Assembly (NCBI GenBank): GCA_030431455.1
Contig: JAUIJE010000001.1
Location: 310,001-374,000 of the forward strand
Reading direction: 5' to 3'
From: a bacterium
GTDB lineage: Bacteria > Myxococcota > UBA727 > JAUIJE01
Length of the DNA stretch: 64,000 nt
Under the pieces are notes generated by a model. That model was not told the origin of the DNA. It saw only the letters and a program-made list of their open reading frames with translations, and did not search any database. This document shows, piece after piece, positions 43,705-50,436 of this stretch. How positions within the stretch are numbered: position 1 is the stretch's first letter; each line of letters starts with the position of its first letter. A program made the position numbers and the translations under genes.

Positions 43705-44685
43705 ATGGCCAAACCGCTTCTCTGTCCCCCCGACGTGTTGAACAAAGACCTCACCGGCCAAGTCGCCATCGTCACCGGGGCGAACTCGGGCATCGGGTTC
43801 GTCACCGCCCAGCAGCTCGCCGCCCAAGGCGCCCAGGTGGTGCTCGCCTGCCGGCGGGTGGCCGAAGGCGAGGCCCGGGTGGCCGAGATCAAGGCCAAGC
43901 ACAAAGACGCGCGCCTGGAGGTCCGCGCCCTCGACCTCGGCGACCTGTCGTCGGTGCGGGCCTTTGCGAAGGACTTCCTCGCCGATCACGACGCGCTGCA
44001 CCTGCTCATCAACAACGCCGGGGTGATGAACACCCCCCAAGGCAAAACCAAAGACGGGTTCGAGACGCAAATCGGCGTCAACCACCTCGGGCATTTCCTG
44101 CTCACCGCGCTGCTCACCGACGTGCTGAAGAAGAGCGCACCGTCCCGGGTGGTGGTGCTCTCGAGCTGCTACCACGACAAAGCCATGGGCCGCGAAGGCG
44201 AGATCGTGCTCGACGACCTGCACTTTGCCCACCGCAAGTACGACGGGTGGACCGCTTACGCGCAGGCCAAGCTCGCCAACCTGCTGCACGCCCAAGAGCT
44301 GGCCAAGCGCCTCGAGGGGACCGGCGTGACCGTGGCCAGCGTGCACCCGGGGTGGGTCCGCACCAACCTCAGCCGCCACACCGGCCCCACCTGGCTGCAG
44401 AACACCGTGCTGCGCCCGGTGTTCGCGATGTTTGGCATGATCGAACCCTGGGAAGGCGCGCAGACCACGCTCTACGCCGCCCTCGGCGACGACGTGACCG
44501 CGCACAGCGGCGCGTACTACAGCCAGATCGGGCTGTACCGCGACAAGAGCAAAAACCGCGGGGGCTGGCCGCTCGAGTCGCCCAACCCCCACGCCCACGA
44601 CGACAAGATGGCGGCCGCGCTGTGGGACAAGAGCTGCGAACTGGTGGGGCTGAGCACGCCGGCGGCGCAACCTGCGGCGGCCTGA
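43705..44685 (+). CDS. Short-chain dehydrogenase (retinol-dehydrogenase-like)
   Basis: A 326-residue classical/extended SDR: VAIVTGANSGIGFVTAQQLAAQGAQVVLACR (cofactor site TGxxxGIG), LLINNAGVMNTP, VNHLGHFLLTALL, RVVVLSSCYHD, YAQAKLANLLHAQELAKRL (YxxxK) and VHPGWVRTNLSRH. CRR after the second strand suggests NADP(H) preference, as in RDH11-13-like enzymes. It probably acts on a lipophilic alcohol or aldehyde. Divergent from the TetR gene that likely controls it, and followed by a strong terminator. Confidence 0.92.
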   Translation: MAKPLLCPPDVLNKDLTGQVAIVTGANSGIGFVTAQQLAAQGAQVVLACRRVAEGEARVAEIKAKHKDARLEVRALDLGDLSSVRAFAKDFLADHDALHLLINNAGVMNTPQGKTKDGFETQIGVNHLGHFLLTALLTDVLKKSAPSRVVVLSSCYHDKAMGREGEIVLDDLHFAHRKYDGWTAYAQAKLANLLHAQELAKRLEGTGVTVASVHPGWVRTNLSRHTGPTWLQNTVLRPVFAMFGMIEPWEGAQTTLYAALGDDVTAHSGAYYSQIGLYRDKSKNRGGWPLESPNPHAHDDKMAAALWDKSCELVGLSTPAAQPAAA

Positions 44686-44706
44686 CCTGGGGCTACGGGC
44701 GGCGCC

Positions 44707-44740
44707 ACGATCCGGTTCGAAAGCCGAACCGGATCGTTTT
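44707..44740 (+). terminator. Rho-independent terminator after SDR gene
   Basis: A perfect 13-bp stem (ACGATCCGGTTCG / CGAACCGGATCGT) with a 5-nt loop is followed by TTTT, 22 nt after the SDR stop codon. Confidence 0.85.
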
Positions 44741-44864
44741 GAGACACGTAAGCTCCTAATAAATAAGGAGAAACTCGGTTTCGTGACCCGAACCCAGAAA
44801 CTGCGCGCGCGGGGGCGCCATCGGCGAGAATTGACCCACGTTCATTTTGCACCGTGGGGGCCCC

Positions 44865-46544
44865 GTGACCGTTCAACGCAACAGCCGCACCAGCGTCATC
44901 CAGCGCATGCGGGACATCGCCGCCCGGGCCGCACGAACCGCGGCCGAGACCGCGCAAAGCGGCTCCGCCGCGCGACAACCGAACGCGCCGCGGCGCACCC
45001 CGGCCCCCGGGCGCCCGGCCGAGACCCCGGCCCGCCGGCCCGCCGACGCCCAGACCGTGCGCGGCAGCCGCCGGCGGGGGGCGCAGACCAACCCCGCGAT
45101 GGCGGCGCGGCTTTTTGGCCAGGGGGTCGCGGTGAGCGGCACCGCGCAGCTGCGGACCTCGGGAACAGTGGAGAGCCGCTCGTCGGTGGCGAGCCCGCTC
45201 GACCTCGCGGGGCGGGCCCTGGGCCAGATTCGCGACGGGGTGGCCGACACCCTCGACCAGGTCGTGCCCGAGTCGGTGCAGAACGCGGCGCGTGATGTGG
45301 GGCAGCGTTTCGCCGAGGTGCACAACCAGGTCGGCGATGCCCTGCGCGACACCCTCGGGGGGGCCACGGGGGTGGACCGGCAGATCGCGGGGCTGAACTC
45401 GCCGGGGGACACCTTCCGCATGGGCCTCGGGGGCCAAGCCGCGGCCGGGGTTCAGGTCGGGGGCCGGGCCGAGATGGAGGTGGCCCGCACCGACGAGGGC
45501 TACACCGTGACCGTGTCGGGCGAAGCCTCGGCCGGGGTGTTCGGCCGGTTGGGGGTGCGCACCGGCGTGCTCGACGCCGGGGTCAGCGGCGAAATCAACG
45601 CCACGGGGCGTGTCTCGGTGGAGGCGACCTACGCCACCCGCGCGGAGGCCCAGGCCGCGGCGCGCACCATCGCGGGCATGACCATGGGCGGAGCGCTCGG
45701 TCCTGCAGGGACATTGTTGACGGGGTCCACCGCGGGCGACGAGATGCGTGACTTCCAAGAGCACGTGACCGCCACCCGGGTGCGGCGGGAGATCTCGGGC
45801 GAGGTCGCGGCCGAGCTCGGGGTCCAGGTCGGGCACGCGGGCCTCGGGGGCTCGGCCGGGGTCGAGGCGCAGATGTCGATGGAGATCGAGATGCGGCCGG
45901 GACAGGACCCGACGATGATCATCGGCAGCTCCATCACCGGCCGCGCGAACATCTCGCTCGGCACCGGCGAGCTGGACCTGCCCGGCGGGGGCGAACTCGA
46001 CCTCGCCGAGGCCGGCGGGGAAGGCACATTGCGGGTGGAGAGCCGCATCCCCCTCGAGGGCATTTCGCCGGCCGCGGCGGTGGCCGATCCCAGCGCGGTG
46101 CTCGCGGCCAACCCGTCGCTGATGCGAGGGGCCCAACACACCATCGGCGCCGACGTGGTGGTGCAGGGCGGCGGCATGGTCCTGACCCCTGGGCTCGGCG
46201 CCCCGGGGGCCCAGCACCGCGGCGGTGCGCTCAACGCGTCCATCGCCGCCACCGTGTCCCAACAGGATCTGCAGCGGGCCACCGCGCGCATCTTCGACGG
46301 TGACCTGCGCGGGGCGCTGCGGGGGCTCTCCGAGGGCAGCCAGATCGACGTCAACCTCGAGGCGGTCGACCGCCGGGGGCAGGACATCGACGTCGACATC
46401 CAGGGCGCGGTGTTTCGCTTTGGGGTCGAGGCCGAGTACATGACCCGCGACGTACACCCGGTGTACCGCTTCCAAGGCTCGGCCGCGGATCTTGGCCGGG
46501 ACGCCTCGGACTTCTTCGACCGCCTCACCGACATCGGCGGCTGA
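44865..46544 (+). CDS. Large hypothetical protein, disordered N-terminus and beta-rich body
   Basis: The likely start is GTG 44865 behind a G-rich ribosome site, giving 559 residues; a longer frame adds 6 codons. The N-terminal 100 residues are Arg/Ala/Pro-rich and disordered, with no signal peptide. A helical stretch follows (VADTLDQVVPESVQNAARDVGQRFAEVHNQVGDAL). About 350 residues are then strand-rich with Gly at turns (GVQVGGRAEMEVARTDEGYTVTVSGEASAGVFGRLGV; GTGELDLPGGGELDLAEAGGEGTLRVES). Style and composition match the C-terminal half of the LysM protein at 14566, so the two may belong to one family. Function unknown. Confidence 0.65.
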   Translation: MTVQRNSRTSVIQRMRDIAARAARTAAETAQSGSAARQPNAPRRTPAPGRPAETPARRPADAQTVRGSRRRGAQTNPAMAARLFGQGVAVSGTAQLRTSGTVESRSSVASPLDLAGRALGQIRDGVADTLDQVVPESVQNAARDVGQRFAEVHNQVGDALRDTLGGATGVDRQIAGLNSPGDTFRMGLGGQAAAGVQVGGRAEMEVARTDEGYTVTVSGEASAGVFGRLGVRTGVLDAGVSGEINATGRVSVEATYATRAEAQAAARTIAGMTMGGALGPAGTLLTGSTAGDEMRDFQEHVTATRVRREISGEVAAELGVQVGHAGLGGSAGVEAQMSMEIEMRPGQDPTMIIGSSITGRANISLGTGELDLPGGGELDLAEAGGEGTLRVESRIPLEGISPAAAVADPSAVLAANPSLMRGAQHTIGADVVVQGGGMVLTPGLGAPGAQHRGGALNASIAATVSQQDLQRATARIFDGDLRGALRGLSEGSQIDVNLEAVDRRGQDIDVDIQGAVFRFGVEAEYMTRDVHPVYRFQGSAADLGRDASDFFDRLTDIGG

Positions 46545-47599: not shown

Positions 47600-47635
47600 A
47601 TAGGGACAATCTATGGACAAATAGTAACAATCGGT
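47600..47635. promoter_or_regulatory. OxyR-type operator
   Basis: ATAG-N7-CTAT (47600-47614), then 6 nt, then ATAG-N7-CGGT (47621-47635). The published OxyR pattern is four tetranucleotides ATAG-N7-CTAT-N7-ATAG-N7-CTAT. Here three of four match exactly and the central gap is one base short. It lies between the OxyR-like gene and the peroxidase operon. Confidence 0.7.
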
Positions 47636-47723
47636 TGGGCAAATCATCCAATCAGACCGAGGATGCCTGCGAGAGTCTCGCGCCGCTCTGTGGGTCCCGT
47701 GTTTAGGCGCCAGGAGGTCTGCC

Positions 47724-48899
47724 ATGTTCCGACGAAGTCTTCTCATGTTCGGCGCGGCGGTCGCCACCCTCGCGACCGGCGCGCTCGCCAACAACTACCT
47801 GGGTCTGCCCCCCCTGCCGGTGCCGGCGGACAACCCGATCACCCCGGCCAAGGTCACGCTGGGGGACAAGCTGTTCCACGACGTGCGGTTCTCGAGCACG
47901 GGCACGGTGTCGTGCGCGACGTGTCACGACGCCCAGACCGGGTTCACCGATGGCCCGCGCTCGGTGTCCGAAGGCATCGAGGGCAAGACCGGCACCCGCA
48001 ACGCGCCCACTGTGCTCAACGCCGCGTTCAACGACAGCCAGTTCTGGGACGGCCGCTCGCCCGACCTCGAGGACCAGTCCCAGCATCCGTTCACCAACCC
48101 GGTGGAGATGGGGCTCAAGGATCACCAACCCATCGTCGATATCGTGAAGAGCGACCCCGCGTACCAGAAGATGTTTCAAGAGGCGTTCGGGGTGTCGTCG
48201 GACCAGGTCACCTTCGCTCACGTGCAAAAGGCCATCGCCACCTTTGAGCGCACCATGGTCGCGGGCAACTCCCCCTTCGACCAGTGGTTCTACGGGGGGA
48301 AAGAGGACGCGCTGACCGACCAACAAAAGCGCGGCTACGAGCTGTTCATCGGCAAGGCCCGGTGCGCCGACTGCCACACCATCGAGCAGACCCACGCGTC
48401 GTTCACCGACGGCAACTTCCACAACATCGGGGTGGGGGTGAACAAAATCCGTGACGACGTGGAAAGCCTGGCCTCGGCGTTCCTCAAGGCCAAACGCACC
48501 ACCGAAGAGGTCGACGTTGAGGTGTTGACCAACCCCAAGAGCTCCGAGCTCGGCCGCTTCGCGGTGGAGACCAACTTCGACGGCCTCGGGGCGTTCAAGA
48601 CGCCGACCCTGCGCAACATCGAGCTCACCGCCCCGTACATGCACGACGGCAGCATCAAGACCTTGGAGAAGGTGGTGGAGCACTACAACAACGGGGGCGT
48701 GACCAACCCCGGGGACCCGGTGAGCGACTTTCTCGCAGGGGGCATCCGTCCGCTCAACCTCGAGAAACAAGAGCAGGCGGACCTGGTGGCGTTCATGAAG
48801 GCGTTGACCAGCGCGTCGATCCCGAAGCCTCAGTTCGCCGCCGCCCCCGCCGCCCCCGCCAAGGGCAAAGCCAAGAAGAACACCTCGCGCAAGAAATAG
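47724..48899 (+). CDS. Di-heme cytochrome c peroxidase (CcpA/MauG family)
   Basis: A 391-residue ATG after AGGAGG has a Sec signal peptide (MFRRSLLMFGAAVATLATGALA). Heme 1 site is SCATCH (Cys64, Cys67, His68) and heme 2 is RCADCHT. Other conserved parts: LGDKLFHDVRFSSTGTVSC, RNAPTVLNAAFN, FWDGRSPDLEDQ, FKTPTLRNIELTAPYMHDGS. The Lys-rich C-terminal tail (KGKAKKNTSRKK) is unusual. It would reduce hydrogen peroxide in the periplasm using electrons from a small cytochrome, for which the 50026 gene product is a good candidate. Confidence 0.93.
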   Translation: MFRRSLLMFGAAVATLATGALANNYLGLPPLPVPADNPITPAKVTLGDKLFHDVRFSSTGTVSCATCHDAQTGFTDGPRSVSEGIEGKTGTRNAPTVLNAAFNDSQFWDGRSPDLEDQSQHPFTNPVEMGLKDHQPIVDIVKSDPAYQKMFQEAFGVSSDQVTFAHVQKAIATFERTMVAGNSPFDQWFYGGKEDALTDQQKRGYELFIGKARCADCHTIEQTHASFTDGNFHNIGVGVNKIRDDVESLASAFLKAKRTTEEVDVEVLTNPKSSELGRFAVETNFDGLGAFKTPTLRNIELTAPYMHDGSIKTLEKVVEHYNNGGVTNPGDPVSDFLAGGIRPLNLEKQEQADLVAFMKALTSASIPKPQFAAAPAAPAKGKAKKNTSRKK

Positions 48900-48933: not shown

Positions 48934-49995
48934 ATGAAGATCAACAACGCCACCCGTCGCGGATTTCTGAAGTCCACCGGCCTCATCGCCGCGACCTTGC
49001 CCTTTACCCAGGTCAAGCTCGCCTTCGCCGGGGACCACCCCGACATCAACATTGCCTACATCTCCGACTCACACCTGCAGCACATCAAGGGCACAGAGTT
49101 CGTGCGGAACTGGGACCGGGGCCTCATCCGGGCCATCGCCGAGACCAACCTGCTCGACCCCCAGCCCGATTTTATTGTCTACGGCGGGGACCTCGCCCAG
49201 CTCGGCAAAAAGGAAGAGCTGGACCACGGGGCGGAGATGATGGCCAAGCTCAAGGCCCCGGTGAAGTACGTGCTCGGCGAGCACGACTTCTACCTCGACA
49301 TGGGCGCCTATTGGGAAAAGCTGTTCGGCGGCAAGCAGTACTACAGCTGGGACCACAAGGGCGTGCACTTCGTGGTGCTCAACAGCATCCTCACCTACGA
49401 CAAGTGGATCAACAAGTGGCCGTCCGCCGCCGAGCGGATGAACCAGATGGCCGGCCTCGACAATCCCAATGGATCGCCGTTCATGATCGGGGATGCGCAG
49501 TTCGCGTGGCTCAAGCAAGACCTCGCCAAGGTGGCCAAGGACACCCCGGTGGTGGTCTTTTCGCACTCCCCGCTGCAGAAGATCTACAAGGGCTGGAACT
49601 TCTGGACCGAGGAGGCGGAGGACATCCAAGCGGTGCTCAACCAGTTCAGCAATGTGAACGTCATCTACGGGCACGTGCATCAGATTCAGTACAACCGCAT
49701 TGGCAACATCAACTTCCACTCGGTGATGGCCACCGCCTGGCCCTGGCCCTATCCCGAGAGCTACGCCCAGGCCGAGAGCCACCTCCCGGTGCTCACCGTG
49801 CCCATGAACCGCGCCGACCCGTTCCACGAGCGGGACGCCACCGGCTGGCAGCTCATTGACGTGCACACCGGGCGGCCGACGCTGTCGTACAACCTGTACA
49901 ACAACGAAAACCGTGTGGTGGGGCCCAACGACCAAGGCGTGCCCGAGGACAAGCAGTACGCCTCCCGCGCCACCGCCCCGCAGAAACATTACTGA
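48934..49995 (+). CDS. Tat-exported metallophosphoesterase
   Basis: A 353-residue protein starting after AAAGGA with a twin-arginine signal NATRRGFLKSTG. The calcineurin-like motifs are complete but slightly varied: IAYISDSHLQH (DxH), IVYGGDLAQ (GD), VLGEHDFY (GNHD changed to GEHD), VVFSHSP, and VIYGHVHQIQYN (GHxH). The Tat route suggests the metals are inserted before export. It sits between a peroxidase and a cytochrome gene, spaced 34 and 30 nt, so it is part of their operon. Its substrate in this redox setting is unclear. Confidence 0.88.
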   Translation: MKINNATRRGFLKSTGLIAATLPFTQVKLAFAGDHPDINIAYISDSHLQHIKGTEFVRNWDRGLIRAIAETNLLDPQPDFIVYGGDLAQLGKKEELDHGAEMMAKLKAPVKYVLGEHDFYLDMGAYWEKLFGGKQYYSWDHKGVHFVVLNSILTYDKWINKWPSAAERMNQMAGLDNPNGSPFMIGDAQFAWLKQDLAKVAKDTPVVVFSHSPLQKIYKGWNFWTEEAEDIQAVLNQFSNVNVIYGHVHQIQYNRIGNINFHSVMATAWPWPYPESYAQAESHLPVLTVPMNRADPFHERDATGWQLIDVHTGRPTLSYNLYNNENRVVGPNDQGVPEDKQYASRATAPQKHY

Positions 49996-50025: not shown

Positions 50026-50436
50026 ATGAACCGCAAGACAATCATCGGCGCGGTGTTCGCGCTGCTCGCCACCGTGCTCGTCGGCACCCAAGCCCTCGGC
50101 GACACCTTCACCGAGAAGGACGTCGACCGCTGGATGCAGCAATACAAGGCGGTGGCGGCCAAAGGGCGCACGCTCTGGACCAGCCCCGCGCTTGGCACCA
50201 ATGGCGTGGCCTGTGCACAGTGCCACCCCAACGGGGCCAACACCCACCCTGAGACCTACCCCAAGTACCAAAAGCAACTCGGCAAGGTCGTGCCCATCCG
50301 GGAGATGATCAACTGGTGCATCCAAAACCCGCTCCAGGGCGAGCCCTTGGCCCTCGACGACGAACGCATGTGGGCCATCGAGGCCTACCTGCAGTGGGAG
50401 CGCCGCGGGGTCAAGATCGAGCCCGGGAAGCACTGA
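50026..50436 (+). CDS. Mono-heme c-type cytochrome
   Basis: A 136-residue protein with TTGGAGGAATC ahead of its ATG has a signal peptide (TIIGAVFALLATVLVGTQALG) and one heme site NGVACAQCHPNGANTHPETYPKY. The remaining sequence (LGKVVPIREMINWCIQNPLQGEPLALDDERMWAIEAYLQWERRG) resembles the SoxA/thiosulfate-dehydrogenase type of class I cytochrome, where a Cys or Met can be the distal ligand. Probably the electron donor for the peroxidase. Its stop overlaps the next start (TGATG). Confidence 0.88.
   Translation: MNRKTIIGAVFALLATVLVGTQALGDTFTEKDVDRWMQQYKAVAAKGRTLWTSPALGTNGVACAQCHPNGANTHPETYPKYQKQLGKVVPIREMINWCIQNPLQGEPLALDDERMWAIEAYLQWERRGVKIEPGKH

Follow-up and report, generated by a model that had tools for sequence, protein, structure and literature searches.

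A predicted OxyR box with a 6 bp central spacer between an oxyR gene and a MauG-like operon in a myxococcotal genome

An oxyR gene and a haem-peroxidase-family operon flank a predicted OxyR box

We analyzed a 64,000-nucleotide stretch of a myxococcotal genome (the window), in which an oxyR gene and an operon headed by a haem-peroxidase-family gene are divergently oriented around a 142 bp intergenic region (Table 1). This region contains ATAGGGACAATCTATGGACAAATAGTAACAATCGGT, which reads directly as ATAG, GGACAAT, CTAT, GGACAA, ATAG, TAACAAT and CGGT, with spacers of 7, 6 and 7 bp. A preliminary description of this DNA had placed an OxyR box, ATAG-N7-CTAT-N6-ATAG-N7-CGGT, between an OxyR-like gene and a cytochrome peroxidase operon, with three of the four tetranucleotides in order. 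Both its position and its reading were confirmed on the sequence, and across the 7.7 Mb genome no other site matches as well. The label "near-perfect" holds for the first three tetranucleotides, which are exact, and not for the central spacer, which has 6 bp where E. coli has 7; the box therefore departs from the operator arrangement ATAG-N7-CTAT-N7-ATAG-N7-CTAT. The fourth tetranucleotide, CGGT, differs from CTAT by two changes.

Table 1 Features of the oxyR locus in the window
Feature	Coordinates	Strand	Basis
oxyR, LysR-type regulator, 318 aa	46625..47581	-	models, solved relatives, alignment
Predicted OxyR box	47600..47635	.	pattern scans, promoter comparison, shuffles
Box dyad 1, ATAG-N7-CTAT	47600-47614		
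Box central spacer, GGACAA	47615-47620		
Box dyad 2, ATAG-N7-CGGT	47621-47635		
Exported di-haem protein, CCP/MauG family, MauG/MbnH type (CATCH, CADCH, Tyr321)	47724..48899	+	models, alignment
Metallophosphoesterase, exported, twin-Arg-like signal; operon gene 2	48934..49995	+	models, family comparison
Mono-haem cytochrome c, SoxA/TsdA type; operon gene 3	50026..50436	+	models, family comparison

When the window was scanned with the four-part N6 pattern at up to three mismatches, the box (two mismatches) was the sole match, and 100 dinucleotide-preserving shuffles of the window gave no match at the same threshold. Across the 7.7 Mb genome, ATAG-N7-CTAT-N6-ATAG-N7-CNNT matched without mismatches at the box only, the next best site having two, and the N7 version of the pattern found nothing better than three mismatches. 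When the intergenic region was base-shuffled 2000 times, the box score was never reached. Chance occurrence was ruled out by the genome scan together with footprints from sequence comparison; by these comparisons, the predicted OxyR box between the OxyR gene and the haem-peroxidase-family operon is real. From the box it is 18 bp to the start codon (ATG) of oxyR and 88 bp to that of the operon. On the operon side, TTGGGC (47635..47640, +) abuts dyad 2 as a weak candidate -35 element, with TTGGAT in the same place in the syntenic relative L007; a full sigma-70 promoter match was not found on this side.

The operon encodes an exported di-haem enzyme of the MauG/MbnH type

The first gene of the operon (47724) encodes an enzyme whose Tyr321 aligns without gaps with MauG Tyr294 and with Met275 of the P. 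aeruginosa peroxidase, at a position that is invariant in 31 relatives. We take Met275 to be a haem ligand in the P. aeruginosa peroxidase, and Tyr294 to mark the position of the ligand in MauG. A classical cytochrome c peroxidase was rejected, as the distal Met ligand of the C-terminal haem is absent and Tyr321 stands in its place. The earlier label of a cytochrome peroxidase operon needs correcting on this point. Because Tyr321 occupies the haem-ligand position, the sequence assigns the enzyme to the MauG/MbnH type, and it shares with MauG and MbnH (PDB 3l4m and 6e1c) both the two c-type haem motifs (CXXCH) and the Tyr at the MauG Tyr294 position. In contrast to these proteins, it scores below the NCBIfam cut-offs (269 against 363 bits for MbnH, 225 against 444 bits for MauG), and no gene for a partner substrate (MbnP or amine dehydrogenase) was found alongside it, its partners being the phosphoesterase and the cytochrome. 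A search of the open-access literature for OxyR together with MauG returned nothing relevant.

MauG and MbnH oxidize protein residues. With a Tyr at the haem-ligand position, the chemistry of the 47724 enzyme may therefore differ from plain peroxide removal; for another unusual superfamily member, efficient H2O2 reduction has been described as well (PMC6405878). Two features of the accompanying genes were also recorded: seven Trp residues of the metallophosphoesterase are invariant, and at locus L039 the cytochrome gene is extended in its N-terminal part, which exceeds 100 residues.

Conservation points to OxyR control of the operon and of a peroxiredoxin gene

The same three-gene order occurs throughout Myxococcaceae (loci L036-L064) without an adjacent oxyR, and most of these copies have no OxyR box upstream. 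In one Myxococcaceae genome, G130, a copy of the operon is divergent from a catalase gene, and the two are separated by an N7 box of the local type, which may serve the catalase alone. The other copies examined have no box, so that on this comparison the operon is the older element, to which the predicted OxyR control was added locally.

The earlier suggestion that the box be sought in orthologous intergenic regions was borne out in L007, whose OxyR is 70% identical and in which the box, the N6 spacer and the gene order are all kept. Among the relatives, L007 alone has the whole arrangement of oxyR, box and operon, and an N6-type box also precedes many other oxyR genes of the same clade. In this clade, oxyR genes are oriented divergently to katG, catalase, Dps, AhpC, peroxiredoxin or thioredoxin genes, which supports peroxide sensing there. 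A second N6 site of the window genome (C2:296230-296265) lies 74 bp upstream of the ATG of a peroxiredoxin gene of the Redoxin family, and at locus L016 a protein of this same Pfam family is encoded divergently from oxyR. A refined pattern was drawn up from both N6 sites, so that each has 0 mismatches by construction; apart from these two, it found nothing within 3 mismatches in the 7.7 Mb, and its reversed control found none. No KatG and no ordinary catalase turned up in the window genome (97% complete). The sole match to the catalase family (PF00199) in the genome, L034:1294-2424 (C2), is weak, and the start of the protein is lipoprotein-like.

One might propose that the box serves only the autoregulation of oxyR, with the divergent operon having its own promoter and no response to peroxide. 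The lack of an OxyR box at most Myxococcaceae copies of the operon, the shorter distance from the box to the oxyR ATG and the missing promoter match on the operon side would all fit. However, L007 keeps both the divergent arrangement and the box, oxyR genes of the N6 clade are typically divergent from peroxide genes, and G130 provides a second OxyR-type box before the same operon. We consider this alternative unlikely, and favor control of the operon as well as of oxyR.

A further site, C8:423880 (locus L020, two mismatches), was not assigned to OxyR, since it resembles another palindrome and has another gene context. This site, L020:1501-1536 (C8:423880-423915), is a good palindrome, CCTATCGCTAGATAGG, with a sigma-factor-like gene on one side and a MerR-like gene, possibly with a B12-binding domain, on the other; it may be the operator of a light or stress regulator.

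Two OxyR clades with different spacers in their predicted operators

Promoter regions of about 90 oxyR genes, drawn from several phyla, were collected. For every spacer length between 3 and 11 we scored the best-matching ATAG/CTAT array, counting a promoter as informative only if its array beat shuffled versions. In a tree of 67 OxyR proteins, for which Myxococcaceae had been thinned beforehand, two clades were separated with branch support of 100/100. In the first (E. coli, Proteus, alphaproteobacteria, Comamonas and Myxococcaceae), all 12 informative promoters had N7 and none had N6, while in the second (the window, L006, L007, Bacteroidota, Bdellovibrionota and Ignavibacteriota) 24 of 25 had N6. 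When a lead of three letters or more was required, the counts were 5:0 for N7 in the first clade and 15:0 for N6 in the second. The informative promoters number about 37 in all and are mutually related, and of the promoters in the N6 clade about half gave no information; Fisher values for clade against spacer ignore relatedness, and we therefore do not use them as probabilities. At the 80% level the clades are told apart by only six alignment columns, of which two (positions 29 and 50 of the window OxyR) fall within or close to the helix-turn-helix; these are too few for us to name a residue as the cause of the spacing.

The E. coli oxyR operator scored 14/16 with no spacer other than 7 bp, which agrees with its dyad centers at -66 and -44, 22 bp apart (PMC5002191). 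A 2022 paper gives an interval of 7 to 10 bp for characterized OxyR motifs (PMC8787470). As this range starts at 7 bp, a 6 bp class appears to be undescribed in the open-access literature, in which we found nothing relevant on Bacteroidota OxyR motifs; an earlier description elsewhere is possible. These results suggest that the OxyR branch of the window reads sites 1 bp shorter than the textbook site of E. coli. A degenerate N7 operator that follows no clade rule would be consistent with the off-consensus fourth tetranucleotide and with the small, related set of informative promoters; yet the division of N6 between the clades (24/25 against 0/12), the several phyla on the N6 side and the persistence of the split at the three-letter margin make this very improbable. 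On the promoter comparison, the 6 bp spacer is thus a clade-wide operator variant and not decay.

The regulator itself has OxyR as both its best model and its best solved relative, with a LysR-type helix-turn-helix and a substrate domain. It contains Cys26, Cys200 and Cys209, and the latter two correspond in the alignment to Cys199 and Cys208 of the E. coli protein, positions that are invariant in the 67 aligned OxyRs; the redox cysteines at OxyR spacing noted in the preliminary description are thereby upheld. Its score against the NCBIfam equivalog OxyR model is 189 bits, below the strict cut-off of 329, which was likewise not reached in any of the 195 Myxococcota genomes searched. By its sequence, the protein is a true OxyR: a LysR protein sensing another ligand, to which the sub-threshold score and the T-N11-A motif common to the LysR family (PMC5002191) might point, is scarcely credible given the best model and solved relative, the invariant cysteines, and relatives that adjoin peroxide genes and are annotated as hydrogen peroxide-inducible genes activator. 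The window genome has one close OxyR only, its next LysR paralogue being much weaker. The OxyR model was matched in 71 of the 195 genomes, mostly by the other, E. coli-like OxyR, and a near relative of the window OxyR occurred in only 3; this patchy distribution suggests horizontal gain.

A model for peroxide control of the locus

Our model, to which we assign a probability of about 0.8, is that an N6-clade OxyR autoregulates through 47600-47635 and, under peroxide, activates the MauG-like operon and the peroxiredoxin gene, with redox switching, autorepression and activation carried over from the E. coli system. Reduced OxyR on the box would hold down its own gene; peroxide would then lead to a Cys200-Cys209 disulfide, and oxidized OxyR, on both dyads, would recruit polymerase on the operon side and activate the divergent operon. 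The unlinked peroxiredoxin gene would also be activated. The dyad centers would lie 21 bp apart (two turns of B-DNA) for the OxyR branch of the window and 22 bp apart for the E. coli type. From the gene content, the 47724 enzyme would remove periplasmic peroxide or spend it as a co-substrate.

The locus resembles the E. coli oxyR-oxyS pair in its LysR-type sensor, its two cysteines, its four ATAG/CTAT half-sites and its divergent genes, and differs in the central spacer (6 bp instead of 7 bp) and in the OxyR clade. It also recalls E. coli ccp, a cytochrome c peroxidase gene of the OxyR regulon (PMC8115020), in that OxyR adjoins or controls an exported haem enzyme of the peroxidase family, the control being a prediction for the window; there, however, this enzyme is of the MauG/MbnH type, and its operon also includes genes for a phosphoesterase and a cytochrome. 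As OxyR control of E. coli ccp was already known, the earlier claim of an unusual OxyR target was too strong, and the new elements are the spacer class and the MauG-like nature of the enzyme. Bacteroidota oxyR loci share the OxyR clade and the 6 bp spacer, but their divergent gene is katG, catalase or dps instead of a MauG-like operon.

Of more interest than the link to a peroxidase is the 6 bp spacer shared across the clade. OxyR operators are sought with the E. coli spacing, and should 6 bp be the spacing of a whole clade (Bacteroidota, Bdellovibrionota and a few Myxococcota), scans of its regulons have relied on an unsuitable measure; the difference would also offer a way to learn how dyad spacing is determined in a LysR-type regulator. 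In addition, the locus gives a first regulatory clue for an uncharacterized, widely conserved MauG-like enzyme. A bolder and unlikely extension is that two OxyR operator codes, with 21 or 22 bp between dyad centers, became fixed when the family split early on, and that the window OxyR controls a MauG-like enzyme which oxidizes a partner protein, perhaps the adjacent phosphoesterase with its invariant Trp residues, with peroxide as co-substrate. If true, peroxide would be both the signal for and the driver of a protein modification.

Other features of the window and its genome

The N7 pattern scan also revealed, at C23:4996-24000 of the window genome, about nine copies of AAAGAGCGCCACTTTAGCGCGAATCGGAAGTGGCGCT that are nearly identical, together with two variants, spaced approximately 0.7-4 kb apart; they resemble a dispersed repeat or a gene family present in repeated copies. 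Within the window, very long open frames overlap on opposite strands in a GC-rich region, 44847-46544 (+) and 46475-44517 (-); the antisense frames in the 44517-46544 region are probably not genes.
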